Shown here in pieces: positions 14,190 through 26,101 of a stretch of 64,000 bases of DNA. The stretch lies in contig CAJJAT010000003.1 in assembly GCA_905182175.1 (NCBI GenBank), forward strand, positions 186,001 to 250,000, given 5' to 3'. Each line of letters starts with the position of its first letter. Within the stretch, counting starts at the first letter, position 1. The DNA comes from Flavobacteriales bacterium UBA1494 (GTDB lineage: Bacteria > Bacteroidota > Bacteroidia > Flavobacteriales_E > Vicingaceae). The position numbers and the translations under genes are program-made. The notes under the pieces are model-generated. The model did no database searches and was not told the origin of the DNA. It saw only the letters and a list, made by a program, of their open reading frames with translations.

Positions 14190-14984
14190 ATGAAATTTTT
14201 TTCAATTCTAACACTTGTATTGTTTTTACTTATCTCCTGTTTGTTCGTAAATGGTCAGGTGCAGGTTGAGTTTAATCAGCAGAATGCCCAAGGTCAAAAA
14301 GTTGGCAAGTGGAAAGGGTTCTACGAAAACGGCGCTGTTCGTTATGTTGGGCAATTTGAAAAGGATGCACCACAAGGAACTTTCTATCACTATTATGGTG
14401 ATGGTAAATTGCAAACTAAGATGGTTTATCGAACTTCAGAAGAGGCTTTTGCAACAATATATTACTCGTCTGGAGAAAAGCTTGCACAAGGAAAGTACAT
14501 TGATAAACTGAAAGATTCAGTTTGGATAACTTTTGGTTCAGAGAACAGAATAGTAGAAACGGGGAGTTACCGTCAGGGTAAAAAAGAAGGAAAGTGGGTT
14601 ACATTTTATGAAACAGGAGAAGTATCTGTTGAGATAAATTTCGAAGACAACTTGAAAGATGGACCATACCGGATGCTTTACGGGAATGGGCAATTAAAAG
14701 ACTCATCAAATTTTAAAGGAGGAAAATTGCACGGTTATTCCGTTATATATGATTCTCAAGGAAAAAAAGTATTACAAGGCATATACAATAGAAGTAAAAG
14801 GGATAAACATTGGGTATATTACGGTGAAAACCAAAAGGTAGATAAAGTGTTGAAGTATATAGATGGTCAATTGATGAATCCGGAAGATTTGAAAGTGATA
14901 CTTGAAGACGTAGAGGAGTTTAAAGGAAATCGGAAAGATATACTAGAATTTGAAGATTTAAGAGGTACAATAAGTTATGAGTAA
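14190..14984 (+). CDS. Secreted MORN/YwqK-repeat protein upstream of mnmA
   Basis: The 264-residue product has a signal peptide (residues 1-22, ending VNG) and then about eight MORN-variant repeats of the YwqK type, for example GKWKGFYENGAVRYVGQFE, QGTFYHYYGDGKLQTKM and EGKWVTFYETGEVSVEI. These repeats form an extended beta scaffold. The function in Bacteroidota is unknown, and the toxin-antitoxin label sometimes attached to YwqK is not supported here. Its 3' end overlaps mnmA by 8 bp, so the two genes are co-transcribed and translationally coupled. Confidence 0.75.
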   Translation: MKFFSILTLVLFLLISCLFVNGQVQVEFNQQNAQGQKVGKWKGFYENGAVRYVGQFEKDAPQGTFYHYYGDGKLQTKMVYRTSEEAFATIYYSSGEKLAQGKYIDKLKDSVWITFGSENRIVETGSYRQGKKEGKWVTFYETGEVSVEINFEDNLKDGPYRMLYGNGQLKDSSNFKGGKLHGYSVIYDSQGKKVLQGIYNRSKRDKHWVYYGENQKVDKVLKYIDGQLMNPEDLKVILEDVEEFKGNRKDILEFEDLRGTISYE

Positions 14985-17515: not shown

Positions 17516-19156
17516 TCAAGTTTGGATAATTCCAACATTGTAAGGTTTCTCAATTGGGGCATTGTTTGCTGCCTCAATTCCCATAGAAACCCAACGTCTG
17601 GTGTCCAAAGGATCAATTACATTGTCTACCCATAGTCGACTAGCTGCATAATAGGGAGAGGTTTGCTTGTCGTATTTTTCTGTGATCTCTTTCAATAACT
17701 TGTCTTTCGCTTCTTCTGTTATTTCTTCGCCTTTTGCTTTTAATGTTGCTACTTGAATTTGCAACAAGGTTTTTGCAGCGGCAGCGCCACTCATTACTGC
17801 AATATTTGCTGTTGGCCATGCTGCCATTAGTCGTGGATCGTAAGCTTTACCACACATCGCATAATTGCCTGCTCCGTAACTATTTCCCATTACAATGGTA
17901 AATTTTGGCACAACAGAATTGGCCATGGCATTCACCATTTTTGCTCCATCTTTAATAATTCCTCCATGTTCTGATTTTGAGCCTACCATGAATCCAGTGA
18001 CGTCTTGTAAAAAGACTAAGGGAATTTTCTTTTGGTTGCAATTCATGATAAAACGGGCTGCTTTATCTGCTGAATCAGAGTATATAACTCCGCCAAAATG
18101 CATTTCTCCTGTCTTCGTTTTGACTAGCTTTCGCTGATTGGCAACAATACCAACTGCCCAGCCGTCAATTCGGGCATAACCACAAACGATGGTTTTACCA
18201 TGCAATGCTTTGTACTCTTCGAACTCACTGTTGTCAACGAGGCAGTTAATGACATCTTTTACCTCGTATTGCTTGTTTCTGTCGTAAGGTATTTTGCTGT
18301 AAAGTGCTTTTTCTTCTCTATCGGGTTTGGCCGATTCGGCTCTGTTAAAACCTGCTTTATTGCTCTCACCCATTTTATCCATAATGTTACGGATAGAGGT
18401 GAGGCAATCTTTATCGTCTTTGCTTTTGTAGTCTGTTACTCCTGAGATTTCGCAATGTGTGCTTGCGCCGCCCAACGTTTCATTGTCAATGTCTTCTCCA
18501 ATTGCAGCTTTCACTAAATAAGAACCAGCAAGAAAAATGGAGCCTGTTTTGTCTACAATTAAGGCTTCATCACTCATAATTGGTAAATAGGCACCACCGG
18601 CAACACAAGAACCCATTACTGCAGCTATTTGGCTAATGCCCATGCTGCTCATAACGGCGTTGTTCCGAAACATTCTTCCGAAATGCTCTTTGTCGGGGAA
18701 AATTTCATCTTGCATCGGTAAAAAAACACCTGCACTGTCAACTAAATAGATAATTGGTAATCTGTTTTCTATTGAAATCTCTTGAGCTCTTAAATTCTTT
18801 TTTGCCGTAATCGGAAACCAAGCCCCTGCTTTAACGGTAGCGTCGTTGGCCACAATAATGCACAACTTTTTAGAAACGTAACCAATTTTAACAACAACTC
18901 CTCCTGAGGGACAGCCGCCATGCTCTTCGTACATTCCTTCTCCAACAAAAGAACCTATTTCGATGCAATTGTCTTTATCATCCAACAAAAAATCAATGCG
19001 CTCTCTTGCAATTAATTTTCCTTTAGCATGCTGTTTGTCAATCTTCTTTTGACCACCACCTAAATTGATTTTCTCTTGCTTTCTATTCAAATCAGATAGC
19101 ATCATTCTGATGCTGTCGTCATTCTTACTTTCTTCTATATCAATTTTTTGAGCCAT
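17516..19156 (-). CDS. Acyl-CoA carboxylase, carboxyltransferase (beta) subunit
   Basis: The 546-residue protein covers both carboxyltransferase halves: an N-terminal acyl-CoA binding half (GSCVAGGAYLPIMSDEA) and a C-terminal biotin half (GNSYGAGNYAMCGKAYDPR). These motifs are closest in pattern to the methylcrotonyl-CoA carboxylase group, though substrate cannot be fixed from sequence alone. It would transfer a carboxyl group from biotin to an acyl-CoA in branched-chain amino acid breakdown or a related path. The biotin-carboxylase subunit is not in the window. Its start overlaps the WbqC-like gene end by 17 bp. Confidence 0.9.
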   Translation of the reverse strand: MAQKIDIEESKNDDSIRMMLSDLNRKQEKINLGGGQKKIDKQHAKGKLIARERIDFLLDDKDNCIEIGSFVGEGMYEEHGGCPSGGVVVKIGYVSKKLCIIVANDATVKAGAWFPITAKKNLRAQEISIENRLPIIYLVDSAGVFLPMQDEIFPDKEHFGRMFRNNAVMSSMGISQIAAVMGSCVAGGAYLPIMSDEALIVDKTGSIFLAGSYLVKAAIGEDIDNETLGGASTHCEISGVTDYKSKDDKDCLTSIRNIMDKMGESNKAGFNRAESAKPDREEKALYSKIPYDRNKQYEVKDVINCLVDNSEFEEYKALHGKTIVCGYARIDGWAVGIVANQRKLVKTKTGEMHFGGVIYSDSADKAARFIMNCNQKKIPLVFLQDVTGFMVGSKSEHGGIIKDGAKMVNAMANSVVPKFTIVMGNSYGAGNYAMCGKAYDPRLMAAWPTANIAVMSGAAAAKTLLQIQVATLKAKGEEITEEAKDKLLKEITEKYDKQTSPYYAASRLWVDNVIDPLDTRRWVSMGIEAANNAPIEKPYNVGIIQT

Positions 19157-19772
19157 ATTTTATAGATTGATTAAGTTGCGTTAAATACAGTTTACTTCCA
19201 GGTCCTAAGTTAAACAGCAAATCGAGAATACTCAAATTTGGAATAAATTTTTGCTTGCCTTCAAATACCTGAATGTACTTTGGTACTTCAATGGAATCGA
19301 TTTCAACTTTGTACTTAGGGTTAATTATAGTTCTCCAGTCTGGTTGTTGAGATTCGTAAGTGGAGGTAAATTTTGCGGTAGATTTTATTCCAATTATTTT
19401 GGTAACCATATTTTCAATCAGTAAATTACGCTTTAGAAGATTTGTTTCTTTTGAAAAAACTAATGGTTTTATTTCTTCGTCGTAAAACTCAAAAAATGGT
19501 GACGCACGATAAGCTGATTCAATTGATCTCCAGTGTAATTTTTGCCAGTTTTCATCGTAACTAACTTCAATATATTCAATAGGGGTATGGTTGTACCACT
19601 TCTTTAACGGAACTACTAAATTTAACAATCCATTTGCTCCCAATATCTGAAACCTACTTCTATAACTCTGTTTTACAAAATGTTCCTTTGTTTCTATGGT
19701 ATGAAAATCTTTATCCGTAATTAACGCATATTGCAGAATGGGCGCAAAGCAGGAGGAGGGAAGGATGACCAT
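19140..19772 (-). CDS. WbqC-like family protein
   Basis: The 210-residue protein starts MVILPSSCFAPILQYALIT and contains the WbqC-family stretch QKLHWRSIESAYRASPFFEFY. WbqC-like proteins occur in polysaccharide clusters and as conserved orphans in Bacteroidota; the reaction is not established. No signal peptide, so it is cytoplasmic. Its 3' end overlaps the acyl-CoA carboxylase start by 17 bp. The stretch 19773-19923 upstream is non-coding; a 61-residue frame there is not convincing. Confidence 0.8.
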   Translation of the reverse strand: MVILPSSCFAPILQYALITDKDFHTIETKEHFVKQSYRSRFQILGANGLLNLVVPLKKWYNHTPIEYIEVSYDENWQKLHWRSIESAYRASPFFEFYDEEIKPLVFSKETNLLKRNLLIENMVTKIIGIKSTAKFTSTYESQQPDWRTIINPKYKVEIDSIEVPKYIQVFEGKQKFIPNLSILDLLFNLGPGSKLYLTQLNQSIKYGSKN

Positions 19773-19923: not shown

Positions 19924-20685
19924 TTAGTTGTAATTCAGCTTGAAGTAGCTGTTCCAATTTTTGATGTTTAAATTGCCAAACATAGATTGTAAGAAAGAAA
20001 AGCTATTTGTAATTCGTTGTTCTTTAGTACTACTTTCTTGCAGCGAAACAATTAAGCTCAATTGTTCCTTAATGAACTGTTCGTTTGCGTTATAGAAGGT
20101 AACCTTAGTCAATTTGCTAATTTCTCCGTTTGAGGTGTTTATTTTGTAAAACTGCAGTGCATTACTTTTCTGTTCATTTGGAAATAAAAAATCGTGGTCA
20201 AATTGAATAGTTCCTTCTGTAAAACTTAATTCTCTCTTTTCTTCAGAATTGTCGACTACGAAAAATCTGATGCTGTTTTGGTCCTCTATTTTAGAGCGAT
20301 TTAATAAAAATGATTCGCTTTGGTTAAAGAAAAGGTAGCTTTCGCTTACAAAATAGTCCTCAAGCGATAAGTATGAACTGTCCTCAATTCCTCTCGAGGC
20401 TATTAACAAGCGCGAAATGGGAGGTTGAAATAAATTAGAAACGGTACCTGAAGTATTACTTGATTTTGGTTTAAAAGCAAGTTTGTTTTTACCATCATAT
20501 AAGAAACAACTTTAACCTGAACCGTTATAGTGTAACATTTCGCTTGGGTCAATTTGATCACCAATTGCAATATTTCTTTTTACCTTATCTGAATATATTT
20601 TTCTGGAGACATGAACAACTTTTAAGCCTTGAGCGAAAGAACAGATAGAAATAAGACTTGTAAATAGAAAATAAAAAATCTTCAT
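19924..20685 (-). pseudogene. Signal-peptide protein gene split by an in-frame TAA
   Basis: Reading from ATG 20685, one frame gives a signal peptide (MKIFYFLFTSLISICSFAQ), LKVVHVSRKIYSDKVKRNIA, then HYNGSG followed by TAA at 20512-20514. The same frame then continues SCFLYDGKNKLAFKPKSS through to a normal end at 19924, 253 amino-acid-coding positions in all. There is no frameshift, so a single substitution appears to have broken the gene. Signal peptide plus a LKVxHVSxxI opening resembles proteins found next to caspase-family genes in Flavobacteria (from memory, not searched). A TTG at 20409 could start the downstream part but would lack the signal peptide. Function unknown. Confidence 0.7.
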
Positions 20686-20722
20686 GTTGTTATTCTTTTA
20701 GTTTAAAAATACATTAACCACC

Positions 20723-21049
20723 TTACTCTCCTAGGCTCCCTATAGGATTGCCAACCGAAGTTTGCTTTGTGGCATTAGCAACATTTATCTTGACAAATTG
20801 AACCTGTTCAGAAACGGATAATTCTTCTTTTTTATTTTTTTCTAGATACTCAGTTAAGTATTTGTTAAAAGGGCTGCTTTCACCTAAATTTCCATCAGAT
20901 ACATATTCTAATCTGCCAGATGCTATGCCAATTGATAGCAGAGGCTTTACACCTCTTATCTAACCTTTAGTCTGAAATTTAGAGTAATCAGATTTATCAG
21001 TTAGACAAATCGCATCGAGTAGCACGCACGGATCGATTCTCGAACTCTT
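20723..21049 (-). pseudogene. C-terminal remnant of a caspase-like (C14) peptidase
   Basis: One minus-strand frame reads CVLLDAICLTDKSD, an internal TAG at 20960-20962, then KPLLSIGIASGRLEYVSDG, SSPFNKYLTEYLEKNKKEEL, SVSEQVQFVKINV and a final TKQTSVGNPIGSLGE before TAA at 20723. The S-x-x-E-x-VSDG, SPF-x-x-x-L and LS-x-SE...PI-x-S-x-G wording is the C-terminal half of bacterial caspase-family proteins. The usual DACxSG catalytic segment appears degraded to LDAICLTD, and the His-bearing N-terminal half is absent; the same frame upstream has another stop at 21050. It directly precedes the broken signal-peptide gene in the same direction. Confidence 0.6.
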
Positions 21050-21161
21050 TTACTGGGAACCTAAGTGAGCTGCACAACTAGAACCATCTAATGATAGAAC
21101 AAGAAAATGATGGTGATGGTTACCTGTATTTAAATGGATTTCCTTAAGATTCCAACATTTC

Positions 21162-23066
21162 TTAGAAATCATATAAACTCTCCAAATCACCATCTGATCG
21201 GAAAGAAAGAAGAGGAAACAGCAACTCATTTTTCGCCTTATGACTATTGGCAACCTTTTTAAGTGCTTTATCCATAGTCTTTGGTTCTCCATTATACAGT
21301 GCTATAATTTTATCCAGCGACATATTAAGTAATGTTATCAATTTCACGTAATCATCTATTGGACGGCGGTCATTAAAGTTTCGCTCTTCAGTATATCTCC
21401 TTTTAAAATCATCCATTACAGCAGTATAAGTTACATATATGAACTTTGTTTTTGTGGTGAGATTAAGTTCTTCTATCTGTTTTGTTTTTGCTTCAAATTG
21501 TTGTGAAATTAATAGTAAATTTCTATTTTCATCAAGGCATTCATCCAACAGACCGTTTAATCCAATGATTACACTATCTTTATTGTAGTTAAGGTAGTAT
21601 TCTTTTTTATCTGAGGATGATGCGTTATGATCTGCCAACTGCTTTGGATTAAAATATGCCATCTCCTCCTCGCCTTTAACAATTGTGGTTGCACCTGTCC
21701 ATTTATCAAATATTTCCGTGGCTGGATTTACATTGTTCATTACATCGGAAACAAGTAAACCACTCAGATTATTTATTGCTCCCGCTTGATAAGGTCGATA
21801 AAAATCCATATTCTGAGTTTTGAGTGCTGCTCTTATTTCATTTTTTTCCTCCTCCTTCCTAGCAGATAGATTTTGCTCTAGTGCCCAAACAACATCCTTA
21901 GAAAGTAAAATTTTACTCAGTGAATCAGCTTTTTTAAATGAAATCTTAAATTGTTCATCCAACCTTTTCAAGTCACTTTTTTTATATCTGTAGCCAGTAT
22001 ATTGTCTTATATACGTTTCAACATCAAGATAAGAGTTAAAGGCATCCATATATAATCCCGAGTTAAAGAGCTTTTCTGCTTTTTCATATCCCTGTATGTT
22101 TTCGATTTGACTGAAGTCAATCTTATTAACTACAATATTGCAACCCCCATGTATAGAATTGTAATCATAAGTTAGATCACCTTTTATAAACTTGTATAAA
22201 AACCAATCTGAGCTCATCATCATCTTAAAATATGGTTGTATATATTTAGTTGGTATATTACCTGAACAAACGGTGTCTAATTCATAACCGTCCATTTCAA
22301 GCTCTTCCGTGGACTTTTCTCTTAGGTCCAAGTATTTTTGGTTTCTTTCGGCATTCAGCTCGGGATTTAGAGATGTAGAGCCATCTAGAATTTGCCCACT
22401 ACCATTCCGACCAATAAAGTCAGTCATAAACTTATTTTTGTAGATAATCTCATACGTTTGATTTTTATCTAATAAATTTAATTTCCATTTACCGACGGAG
22501 TAACTATCTTCATCAAAGCTACCCTTAGCTGTGAAAACACCAACTGCATTTATGTCTACATTCCCTACGACTTTACCATCTACAAAATTCATACTGGCAT
22601 TTACAACTTCCTCGGGACGATATTCTCCCCATCCAGTATAATTACTATATTTTCTTGTTTTGTTTTTGGTATAGTACGTCCAATTCCCGTCTGCTAAACC
22701 ATTTTTATAATTTGAGATCAATGTTATCGTGCCTGTGGCATGATAATAACCTAAAAAATAATCGTTCATAATAAGCTTATAGGTCCATGTGCCTTGCTTA
22801 AGTCCTTTTTCATAATTTCCAGAAATGGTTTGCTTAAGCCCTTTAAGGTCGTCTTTGCCAATTATGCTGTATTTAAAGGCTCCTTGTTTTATATACTCTC
22901 TAGTTTGCGGATCTTCATAGTATTTATAAGACGCTGTACCTGGCTGACTTTTTCCGTTAGGGAATGACCCGTTAAAAGTCTTTAATGTTTGTCCATAACT
23001 GCCTGCTGACATCATTAAGAGAAGTAGGCTCAAGTAAAATGGTCGATTAATTTTTTTCGTTATCAT
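21162..23066 (-). CDS. Large secreted MORN-repeat protein
   Basis: The 634-residue product has a signal peptide (ending SYGQ at about 26). Residues about 30-230 carry MORN-type repeats of the GNWTYYTKNKTRKYSNY and KQGTWTYKL kind; the following 400 residues are mostly helical and charged with no recognised domain. It is an extracytoplasmic protein of unknown role. The gene is intact and divergent from the TTG-start regulator gene, 64 bp apart, and its 3' end runs into the caspase remnant, which suggests it was once part of the same locus. Confidence 0.65.
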   Translation of the reverse strand: MITKKINRPFYLSLLLLMMSAGSYGQTLKTFNGSFPNGKSQPGTASYKYYEDPQTREYIKQGAFKYSIIGKDDLKGLKQTISGNYEKGLKQGTWTYKLIMNDYFLGYYHATGTITLISNYKNGLADGNWTYYTKNKTRKYSNYTGWGEYRPEEVVNASMNFVDGKVVGNVDINAVGVFTAKGSFDEDSYSVGKWKLNLLDKNQTYEIIYKNKFMTDFIGRNGSGQILDGSTSLNPELNAERNQKYLDLREKSTEELEMDGYELDTVCSGNIPTKYIQPYFKMMMSSDWFLYKFIKGDLTYDYNSIHGGCNIVVNKIDFSQIENIQGYEKAEKLFNSGLYMDAFNSYLDVETYIRQYTGYRYKKSDLKRLDEQFKISFKKADSLSKILLSKDVVWALEQNLSARKEEEKNEIRAALKTQNMDFYRPYQAGAINNLSGLLVSDVMNNVNPATEIFDKWTGATTIVKGEEEMAYFNPKQLADHNASSSDKKEYYLNYNKDSVIIGLNGLLDECLDENRNLLLISQQFEAKTKQIEELNLTTKTKFIYVTYTAVMDDFKRRYTEERNFNDRRPIDDYVKLITLLNMSLDKIIALYNGEPKTMDKALKKVANSHKAKNELLFPLLSFRSDGDLESLYDF

Positions 23067-23114
23067 GACATTCTCTAATTATATTTTCGATGCAATTATA
23101 ATCGTTAAAAACTT

Positions 23115-23122
23115 TATATTTG
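23115..23122 (+). promoter_or_regulatory. Candidate -7 box TATATTTG for the 23131 gene
   Basis: Exact TAnnTTTG match ending 8 nt before the TTG start at 23131, giving a very short or absent leader. No TTG at the expected -33 position is visible. The 64-bp divergent gap also has to serve the MORN gene. Confidence 0.4.
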
Positions 23123-23130
23123 GCTCATAA

Positions 23131-24390
23131 TTGGATCATTCTATATTTATTTTGATTAATATATTAAAAACAGAAGTAGAGCACTTTCTTGGTAGAAAGA
23201 TCACCAAAAGAGGTGACTGCGAATATTTATCTCACGCTATTTTTGACTCCTTGAATATTGAGGTAAGCTTTAACACTCTCAGGAGAATTTACGGCCTTTT
23301 ACCGCCCACAAACCCGAACATAAAAACATTAAATACGCTTGCTCAATTTTTAGGATACAAACATTTTTATCATTTTTCACAAATGTATCAATACAAAGAA
23401 CAGGTTTCATTTTCAGAGTTGATATACGCAGCAATCAAGGATAATAATGATGATACAATGATCGCTATTGTAGAAAACTACAAGAATACTCCGGGTGAAT
23501 TTTTGAGTGTAATTATAACCCTTGTAAGAGAACTGTTGCACAAAGACAAATACATTTTAATAGATAGGATATTCAAATTAAAATCACTTGATTTTTCTTC
23601 ATTTTCGTATTTTGAAGTACTCAGAATTGGAAATTCAATTGGCTTGCTACTTCAAGAAAAAAGGGAAATTGATATAATAATCTTCACTAATGAAAACTTC
23701 ATAGATTTTTTGTACGCGACTTTTGTAGATTATTCGAACTTGAATAACTACTATGGTGATGTATCCGAATTTATTTCAAAGAATATACAAAGAGACGATA
23801 TCCTGATGTTTTCAAGGTCAATACTCGAGTTCCGGAATTTTCTCAATAAGAAAGCCTTTAGTCATTTGAACATTATTCACGAAAAAAAAATACATCCTAT
23901 TTTAAGTGGGCGATTATTAGCATTAAAATTACTAGCTACAAATTCCAATAAAACACTTGATATATTAAAAATCTACCATATTACTATTAAAGAAAAAGGT
24001 GATTGGTTAGACCATTACTTTGAGTTGTTTACAACTTCCATATTATTAAAAAATACGGATATAATGTGGTTTTTGATAAATAATATCTCTGTACAATTTA
24101 GGTTTCAGCATCACAAGATTCATTTAAATTCTTTCAACTTAATGTGTCTATTTTACTACAGGTTAAGCGGAGATGTGAAAAATGAAAATCTCTTTATAGA
24201 TACCTTTACCTTATCTACTTGTCTCCGAAGCTACAAAGACTTTATGCATATATTATGGCTTATTTATAAATTTAATGCGGCAACCGATAATTTAGAAAAA
24301 GAAGAATTGAAAAATACTTACTTGCAAGTAAGTAAGAAACTTAAGTACCCTTTTTTTTCAGAAAATTATTTGCAGAATTATTTTGGTTAA
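23131..24390 (+). CDS. Putative regulator: N-terminal HTH-like module plus helical C-terminal region
   Basis: The 419-residue protein starts at TTG 23131; a TAA lies immediately upstream and the next in-frame ATG is about 85 codons in. Residues 20-80 (ITKRGDCEYLSHAIFDSLN, FNTLRRIYGLLPP, IKTLNTLAQFLGYKHFYHF) form an all-helical module that recurs in Bacteroidota proteins and resembles a DNA-binding helix-turn-helix. The remaining 340 residues are helical and rich in aromatic and charged residues, without named repeats. DNA binding and control of the divergent MORN gene are inferred from the fold-like pattern and the shared 64-bp gap. Confidence 0.55.
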   Translation: MDHSIFILINILKTEVEHFLGRKITKRGDCEYLSHAIFDSLNIEVSFNTLRRIYGLLPPTNPNIKTLNTLAQFLGYKHFYHFSQMYQYKEQVSFSELIYAAIKDNNDDTMIAIVENYKNTPGEFLSVIITLVRELLHKDKYILIDRIFKLKSLDFSSFSYFEVLRIGNSIGLLLQEKREIDIIIFTNENFIDFLYATFVDYSNLNNYYGDVSEFISKNIQRDDILMFSRSILEFRNFLNKKAFSHLNIIHEKKIHPILSGRLLALKLLATNSNKTLDILKIYHITIKEKGDWLDHYFELFTTSILLKNTDIMWFLINNISVQFRFQHHKIHLNSFNLMCLFYYRLSGDVKNENLFIDTFTLSTCLRSYKDFMHILWLIYKFNAATDNLEKEELKNTYLQVSKKLKYPFFSENYLQNYFG

Positions 24391-24459
24391 ATTATCTTAT
24401 AGGATAATTTGATTACCATTTTTAAACTACGATATCATTTGACATGTTGATCATAAAAA

Positions 24460-24494
24460 AGCGGAATAGTGAATCAAAATTCAACTATTCCGCT
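24460..24494 (-). terminator. Intrinsic terminator hairpin reading minus
   Basis: AGCGGAATAGT (24460-24470) and ACTATTCCGCT (24484-24494) form an 11-bp perfect stem. On the minus strand the stem is followed by a run of T (24455-24460 is A on the plus strand). It directly follows the tRNA 3'-end-like sequence on that strand. Confidence 0.7.
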
Positions 24495-24495
24495 A

Positions 24496-24516
24496 TGGTA
24501 GCGAGAAGCAGAATTC
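24496..24516 (-). other. tRNA 3'-end-like remnant (T-loop to CCA)
   Basis: On the minus strand the sequence GAATTCTGCTTCTCGCTACCA reads like the last part of a tRNA: end of the T-loop, T-stem, acceptor strand and CCA, followed at once by a terminator hairpin. No matching 5' acceptor strand, D-arm or anticodon arm is present upstream, so it is not a functional tRNA. A leftover half of an integration site or a truncated tRNA gene are both possible. Confidence 0.35.
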
Positions 24517-24570
24517 CTCCTCCATTGCATTTCGGCGGATAGACCTCGATTATGGACCGCTTTATATCAA

Positions 24571-24604
24571 AAAGAGGACCTGGCAAAAGCCAAGTCCTCT
24601 TTTC
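24571..24604. terminator. Bidirectional terminator hairpin
   Basis: AAAAGAGGAC (24571-24580) pairs with GTCCTCTTTT (24595-24604), continued by TGGC/GCCA around an AAAA loop with one mismatch. A-rich and T-rich flanks let it work in both directions, ending transcripts from the regulator gene or from the broken TPR gene. Confidence 0.7.
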
Positions 24605-24641
24605 AAAAGCAGAAAAAAGCATAGTCGAATTGAAAAATATA

Positions 24642-25090
24642 TTATTTTAAATTACTGTAGTTGATGTAGTTGACCGATATGCTTGGAAAGCTATTCGTCT
24701 CATTGATTCGTATATAATTTCGAAGAGCTGTTGCGGATTTTTCAAAATCTGAAAGTCCAATGTATATTCTTCCTATTTGATTCGGTAGGATTGTTTTGGA
24801 ACTATTATCAACAAAAAGTTGTAATGCATTTAAGCTTAACTTTCATCATCTCCATTAATCAATGTAATTAGTCCTAGATTTCTATTGCTTTCTGCAATGC
24901 CTTTGCTGTAATTTTTTTACTTAATTGCCGTATTAACTTGGTAATAAATCTGGTATGCCTTCACTGTATTCGATTCAGCAATATCCCATGCTACATCATT
25001 GTTTCTATCAATTTCTTCTTTCCAGAAATCATCTTGAGCGTTGACACTTAAACCGATCAACAATATACAAATGCTTAAAACGAATTTCAA
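24642..25090 (-). pseudogene. Broken TPR-type secreted protein gene
   Basis: From TTG 25090 the frame encodes a signal peptide (MKFVLSICILLIGLSVNAQ) and a helical start (DDFWKEEIDRNNDVAWDIAE), then TAA after QVNTAIK. It resumes in frame with KNYSKGIAESNRNLGLITLI, a TPR-like helix, meets further stops, and then continues one frame over as KLSLNALQLFVDNSSKTILP, IGRIYIGLSDFEKSATALRN and on to TAA at 24642. One stop and one frameshift make this a pseudogene. The helix pattern suggests tetratricopeptide repeats; the original role is unknown. Confidence 0.6.
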
Positions 25091-25099
25091 AATTTAAGA

Positions 25100-26101
25100 T
25101 TAGGTGAATAGTCGAATTGCCTCTTTTAACAATTCTGATTTGTCTACCGACATAACTCCTACATTTTCACAAACCAACCCGCCTGCTAAATTTGAAAGTT
25201 CGGCGATCATTTCAGGTTCTTGATTCAATGCTAAGCATAGAGTTGCCACGCTAATTACTGTATCTCCTGCACCTGAAACGTCAGTAATATCTCGGTGATG
25301 GGCTTTTATGTGGTGTTTGACTTTCGGTGAAGTGATAAAAACCCCTAACTCTGAAAGAGTTATTAACGTATTTTTATTGTGTAAGGTGTTCTCTAATTTT
25401 TTAATGGCATCCTCTAGTTCTTCTTGATTCTTGTGATTAAAATCTAATTTTAAGCCTTCTTTTAGCTCTTTCAAATTGGGTTTAAAAAGAGTTACATGAT
25501 GGTACTCAGTAAAGTTATTTTTTTTAGGATCTACTGTTGTGGGAATAGCTTTTTCATTTGCCAAGCTAACCACCTTTTTAATGAGGCTTGCGGTAATGCT
25601 TCCTTTATCATAATCTTCAAAAATAATAGCATCTACTTTTTGAGCGTTTATTATTTTATGAATTTTTTCATAAAAACTGGTCTCTTCGGATTCGGTTAAA
25701 GGGTGTAAATCTTCACCGTCTATTCGTAACATTTGATGATTATTACCAATAATCCGTGTCTTTTTTGTTGTTCTTCTCGTACTGGATTGCATTAGTCCGT
25801 TTACAGATTGACCATTTTCCTTTGTTAGTGCAATTAACTCTTTTCCATCATCATCTGCCCCAATTACTGAGCATAGAATGGGAGTGGACCCCATTGCCTT
25901 TATATTTAACGCAACATTTGCCGCTCCACCTAAACGAGATTCTTTTTTTTCGACTGATACAATAGGTACCGGAGCTTCGGGTGAAATACGATCAACTTTT
26001 CCCCAATAATAGGAGTCAATCATTACATCGCCAATAATCAGTATTGTTAACGCATTAAATTTTTCAAATAAACCGGTAAGATGTGATTTGGAAGCTTTCA
26101 T
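25100..26101 (-). CDS. PfkB-family kinase, D-glycero-D-manno-heptose-7-phosphate kinase type
   Basis: The 333-residue protein matches the kinase half of HldE/RfaE: GDVMIDSYYWGKVDRISPEA, RLGGAANVALNIKAMG near the N-terminus, and DVSGAGDTVISV near the C-terminus with the catalytic aspartate in GAGD. It would phosphorylate heptose 7-phosphate on the way to ADP-heptose for lipopolysaccharide. The adenylyltransferase half of bifunctional HldE is absent, so it is a single-domain kinase. It starts 1 bp after the aminotransferase gene end in the same direction. The sugar substrate is inferred from family. Confidence 0.82.
   Translation of the reverse strand: MKASKSHLTGLFEKFNALTILIIGDVMIDSYYWGKVDRISPEAPVPIVSVEKKESRLGGAANVALNIKAMGSTPILCSVIGADDDGKELIALTKENGQSVNGLMQSSTRRTTKKTRIIGNNHQMLRIDGEDLHPLTESEETSFYEKIHKIINAQKVDAIIFEDYDKGSITASLIKKVVSLANEKAIPTTVDPKKNNFTEYHHVTLFKPNLKELKEGLKLDFNHKNQEELEDAIKKLENTLHNKNTLITLSELGVFITSPKVKHHIKAHHRDITDVSGAGDTVISVATLCLALNQEPEMIAELSNLAGGLVCENVGVMSVDKSELLKEAIRLFT

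Follow-up and report, generated by a model that had tools for sequence, protein, structure and literature searches.

Gene remnants between pfkB and wbqC

The window, meaning the whole stretch of 64,000 nucleotides that was analysed, contains the remains of a decayed operon on the minus strand. The site is bordered on the left by a pfkB-type kinase gene (25100-26101, minus strand), which forms the same border in genomes G001 to G005, and on the right by a wbqC-type gene (19140-19772, minus strand; WbqC Pfam E 2e-29). Between them lies a 3'-end remnant of a caspase (Peptidase C14) gene of the WD40-caspase type at 20693-20929 on the minus strand. It was delimited by tblastn with the intact caspase of the same-genus genome G004 and corresponds to residues 586-664 of that 664-residue protein (80% identity, E 6e-33). 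The match between the two genomes was first found with a 78-residue fragment as the query (84% identity, E 4e-33), and the remnant has a protein-level score of 316, where shuffled DNA reaches a maximum of 47. An earlier sequence-only reading, which recognized a decayed C14 C-terminus next to a broken signal-peptide gene, is upheld in its main point. It placed the caspase at 20723-21290, but homology is confined to the shorter interval given above, and the part of the proposed interval above 21161 is the 3' end of a MORN gene. It also described a preserved C-terminal half; the C-terminus is indeed preserved, but the 79 codons left amount to about 12% of the protein. It counted two internal stops; the true homology contains TAA codons at 20723-20725 and 20714-20716, and two further stops of the same frame are found upstream, beyond it. 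An open reading frame at 21050-21292 is not caspase sequence; it shares its DNA with the end of the intact MORN gene, which is read in a different frame.

No homology extends upstream of 20929, and nothing is left of the catalytic His/Cys region in the window copy, which still matches the caspase domain in its C-terminal part and lacks an open frame with the two catalytic residues. Caspase signal is absent from 20930-21161 (score 33, shuffle mean 32.5). Because this interval scores like shuffled DNA, the catalytic core must be missing or replaced; it does not show the erosion that had been proposed. The Pfam C14 model, which the sequence-only reading recommended as a check, matches neither the remnant nor anything else in the genome that contains the window (G000), because the fragment is too short and too decayed; it is recognizable as a caspase only through comparison with an intact relative. 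The remnant differs from the G004 gene at rates of 0.12, 0.05 and 0.38 at the three codon positions (pN/pS 0.16, a rough value with silent sites saturated). Since this coding pattern is retained, most of the divergence from G004 looks older than the inactivation, and the decay appears recent relative to the split between the two genomes.

Two further remnants flank the caspase. The LKVVHVS gene (19924-20685, minus strand), which encodes an apparent signal peptide and belongs to a family of candidate caspase partners described below, matches its G004 counterpart over 253 of 253 residues (74% identity, E 6e-131) and is complete and collinear except for one in-frame TAA at codon 58 (20512-20514). 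On the other side, overlooked by the earlier reading, is the 5' end of a TPR-SpoIIE phosphatase gene (24606-25093, minus strand) that covers residues 1-166 of 688 (61-64% identity, E 1.5e-47) and scores 253 against a shuffle maximum of 46. It has a changed start codon, one frameshift and two stops, and it comprises the signal peptide and the TPR part; the phosphatase domain is absent from the window copy. Traces of three of four operon genes are thus present in the G004 order within the same borders, and comparison with the intact G004 operon detects no trace of the fourth, a barrel gene, in the window.

The segment replacing the operon middle

The interval 20930-24605 has no match to the intact operon and takes the place of its middle, namely the rest of the TPR-SpoIIE gene, the barrel gene and the sequence for the caspase N-terminus and catalytic core. 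It carries an intact MORN gene (21162-23066, minus strand) and a divergent regulator gene (23131-24390, plus strand), neither of which is present in the intact G004 locus. No MORN relative was found in any caspase locus examined; such relatives are rare and adjoin neither a caspase nor this regulator. Relatives of the regulator have only its N-terminal 85 residues in common with it and lie beside various other genes, none of them a MORN gene or a caspase. We judge that the MORN and regulator genes do not belong to the caspase locus and are best regarded as having occupied the site later.

No insertion target was revealed by scans with Rfam and for tRNA genes. The only repeats flanking the MORN/regulator segment are short pairs at chance level, and the non-coding DNA at its borders is not repeated elsewhere in the genus genomes. 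Near-perfect hairpins at 24460-24494 and 24570-24603, which are perhaps terminators, occupy the non-coding gap between the regulator gene and the TPR-SpoIIE remnant; no further copy of them was found among the genus genomes. A second, separate gene for a small MORN-type exported protein is located elsewhere in the window (14190-14984, plus strand), just ahead of a tRNA thiouridylase gene.

The intact operon in a same-genus genome

The intact form that was expected in relatives occurs in G004 (contig C86, locus L025), where it occupies the corresponding position and is likewise flanked by pfkB and wbqC. All genes there are on the minus strand, in the order aminotransferase, pfkB-type kinase, TPR-SpoIIE phosphatase (688 residues), outer-membrane barrel (273 residues), WD40-caspase (664 residues), LKVVHVS protein (253 residues), wbqC and carboxylase. 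This is the one intact copy at the site, and it comes from a genome that is 87% complete. The caspase matches PF00656 (70.1 bits, cut-off 21.4, E 2.9e-19) together with WD40 repeats, and it retains GHG and DACFSG motifs. The phosphatase matches PF07228 (59 bits, cut-off 25, E 7.8e-16) together with TPR repeats, the barrel protein has OMP-type Pfam matches slightly below cut-off, and the LKVVHVS protein has no Pfam match. At either end of this contig region there are MCIRDS and LLYTSDAADD peptides, apparently an artefact of adapters or of the assembly.

All four operon products begin with a hydrophobic, signal-peptide-like N-terminus according to a simple hydropathy scan, which is not a dedicated predictor; that of the caspase was judged by eye because it falls below the threshold of the scan. 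The same scan places one transmembrane segment ahead of the SpoIIE part of the phosphatase. Judging from these N-termini, the products of the intact operon are apparently exported.

History of the site

In the outgroup genomes G001 and G005, pfkB and wbqC are about 13 bases apart. Two other genomes have junctions within the operon, and these represent different deletions. The G003 junction fuses the first few TPR codons to codon 58 of the LKVVHVS gene, whereas that of G002 connects TPR residue 64 with LKVVHVS residue 132. A tree built from 1018 shared residues of four bordering proteins and rooted on G005 groups G000 with G004 (support 89) and joins this pair to G002 plus G003 (99), with a support of 98 for all four. 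Because pfkB and wbqC are adjacent in the outgroups and the G002 and G003 deletions differ, the operon was probably gained once in the ancestor of G000, G002, G003 and G004 and has been broken at least three times since. The tree favours this gain followed by losses; an older presence of the operon, cleanly lost from G001 and G005, is a less simple possibility. The repeated losses show that this lineage can do without the operon, and the intact, broken and empty sites within one genus form a natural series.

The caspase nearest to that of G004 is found in locus L063 (80% identity), where the contig ends before the partner position. The next nearest come from Cytophagales-type bacteria (50-56% identity), and the caspase of G008, a member of the same family as the window genome, is about 41% identical. 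Because the Cytophagales-type proteins are closer than the same-family one, these identities would fit acquisition of the operon caspase from outside.

Caspase and LKVVHVS-family genes in other genomes

A caspase-alignment scan of 84,980 species genomes was used to examine the best 80 loci. An LKVVHVS-family gene lies directly downstream of the caspase on the same strand in seven of them (L065, L092, L093, L097, L105, L113 and L114), which span several Bacteroidota orders, and the flanks of the 80 loci yielded no family member in any other position. Of the recurring neighbourhood that the sequence-only reading envisaged, the caspase with its LKVVHVS gene therefore stands, and the association of MORN and regulator genes with caspases does not. 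The other 73 loci show no such partner, although some of these end early at contig ends, and the gene order around caspases varies between lineages; the partner is consequently an option for caspase loci, not a requirement. The order of barrel, WD40-caspase and partner seen in G004 recurs in L065. In L093, L105, L113 and L114, a TPR-caspase and the partner are found in varying order beside OmpA-family and related envelope genes. A short exported protein family, mostly encoded one to three genes upstream of the caspase in 14 of the best 80 loci (including L068, L074 and L080), is another possible partner.

SpoIIE phosphatase genes are no more than three genes away from the caspase gene in eight of the best 80 loci (L063, L076, L092, L124, L128, L135, L136 and L142). 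In the same-family genomes G008, G013 and G035 the caspase gene is directly followed by one for a propeller-SpoIIE protein, and these caspases are apparently exported, judging by the N-terminus where the contig covers it.

When the search starts from the LKVVHVS partner, a caspase is nearby in three of five genomes. In G161 a WD40-caspase is the convergent neighbour of the family gene. In G165 (L150, C96:320000-337000) four tandem TPR-caspase genes are followed by a gene for a membrane protein that reads as CHASE2-like and then by the family gene, and G682 has a similar membrane protein together with a caspase-like gene, recognized by motif and not by domain search, about 5 kb away.

The LKVVHVS family has no Pfam or NCBIfam model. 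A structure model of the L092 member (mean pLDDT 79.7, seven sequences) predicts that a small beta part at the N-terminus is followed by an Ig-like sandwich and then by helices. On comparison with FecR-like proteins, Pfam gave no hit and the fold matches were not distinctive. In a fold search, residues 119-226 gave common Ig-like matches (Z about 5-6, best 6.1, not distinctive) that include NF-kB dimerisation domains, DUF4784 and the MtxA C-terminal domain. No inhibitor fold was identified in this search, and a missing match is no evidence of a new fold. Because the matches are weak and common, the model neither supports nor excludes an inhibitor.

Interpretation

We consider it likely, with a probability of roughly 0.85, that a four-gene exported-caspase operon entered the pfkB-wbqC interval a single time, in the ancestor of G000, G002, G003 and G004, and is intact in G004 and decayed in G000. 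The unit encoded the TPR-transmembrane-SpoIIE phosphatase, the outer-membrane barrel, the exported WD40-caspase and its exported LKVVHVS partner. In G000 the middle was lost, with the MORN/regulator segment in its place, and the caspase 3' end gained its stops and the partner gene its single one; G002 and G003 lost the middle through separate deletions. The genome comparison either shows these steps or leads directly to them.

The MORN, regulator, caspase and LKVVHVS genes adjoin one another in the window, and the sequence-only reading accordingly took them for the ruin of one caspase-associated locus, half of it decayed. The LKVVHVS gene does prove to be a member of that locus. The MORN gene and the TTG-start regulator do not: the operon is intact without them, they recur neither with a caspase nor with each other, and they sit exactly where the operon middle is missing. 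A single four-gene locus of this composition is therefore very improbable. We also regard it as improbable, although less so, that the operon was a cytosolic immunity or abortive-infection locus whose caspase kills the infected cell. The gain and repeated loss of the operon within one genus are typical of defence genes, and the PADLOC caspase model gives a partial hit (1-130 of 453, E 3.7e-16) to the G004 caspase, the only PADLOC component that matched. The G004 locus, however, lacks a STAND NTPase, an effector-associated domain, a nuclease and any other gene with a known role in defence. The EACC1-type caspase model scored far under its cut-off, and the apparent signal peptides on four of four products argue against a cytosolic suicide system. 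The immunity origin suggested earlier is not borne out.

The operon reading leaves room for two views of the LKVVHVS protein. It might be a general envelope protein that is encoded next to caspases through chance carriage and is no partner of theirs. One relative (G169) has no nearby caspase, another (G577) has only a membrane-protein neighbour, and weak relatives with a FecR-like start are found in other settings. Against this, each of the seven family members in the best 80 caspase loci, which come from several orders, immediately follows the caspase on the same strand, and caspases also occur near family genes in G161, G165 and G682. Chance carriage thus seems rather unlikely, yet it deserves to be taken seriously. 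We put forward with equal reserve the more specific idea that exported bacterial caspases have in this family a dedicated partner not recognised before, which would be an inhibitor, a scaffold or an obligate substrate and would form with the caspase an envelope protease-regulator pair that is wired to a SpoIIE phosphatase in some lineages.

If the operon products function together, the caspase may act in the envelope, where its WD40 propeller could hold a substrate or partner. The LKVVHVS protein might be its dedicated regulator, as an inhibitor or scaffold, or its substrate. The phosphatase could sense the periplasm via its TPR part and target a cytoplasmic phosphoprotein, which would link the state of the envelope to gene expression. 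Regulation of the caspase by the partner or cleavage of the partner by the caspase, and the coupling of envelope state to a cytoplasmic phosphoprotein by the phosphatase, are speculative elements, and the scheme as a whole, with an envelope caspase, a partner and a TPR-sensing phosphatase, is a tentative proposal that we hold only slightly more readily than the idea of a dedicated partner family. The dead copy in the window is ordinary; the LKVVHVS-caspase pairing is the part of interest. Attention to bacterial caspases has mostly been on cytosolic suicide or defence; the caspase described here is apparently exported and has a recurrent partner gene that belongs to no named family.

Comparison with known systems

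No description of a caspase-SpoIIE pair, of an LKVVHVS-type partner or of a caspase operon that has both this partner and a TPR-SpoIIE phosphatase was found in the literature searched, which largely excluded subscription papers and preprints. Several features of the G004 operon are familiar from prokaryotic caspases: the domains most often combined with them are WD40 and TPR, they have been reported to carry hydrophobic N-terminal helices, possibly signal peptides, and their operons can include OmpA-type outer-membrane domains (PMC3501461). The G004 protein resembles prokaryotic metacaspases and orthocaspases (PF00656) in its C14 domain with GHG, DACFSG and WD40, whereas the window copy differs from them in that just its final 79 codons are left, none of them for a catalytic residue. 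The G004 protein also has a caspase domain in common with the EACC1-associated conflict-system caspases (NF047832; 54.8 bits), but it does not reach the cut-off of 140 bits, is apparently exported and is encoded in a locus without effector-associated domains; by model score the EACC1-type conflict caspases are a different group. The phosphatase is likewise related to the SiaA-type SpoIIE phosphatases (NF038263), which it resembles as a membrane-anchored SpoIIE protein with a sensor part (131 bits). It differs from them in falling below the cut-off of 700 and in its sensor, which is a TPR part here and a regulator propeller in L043-type loci.
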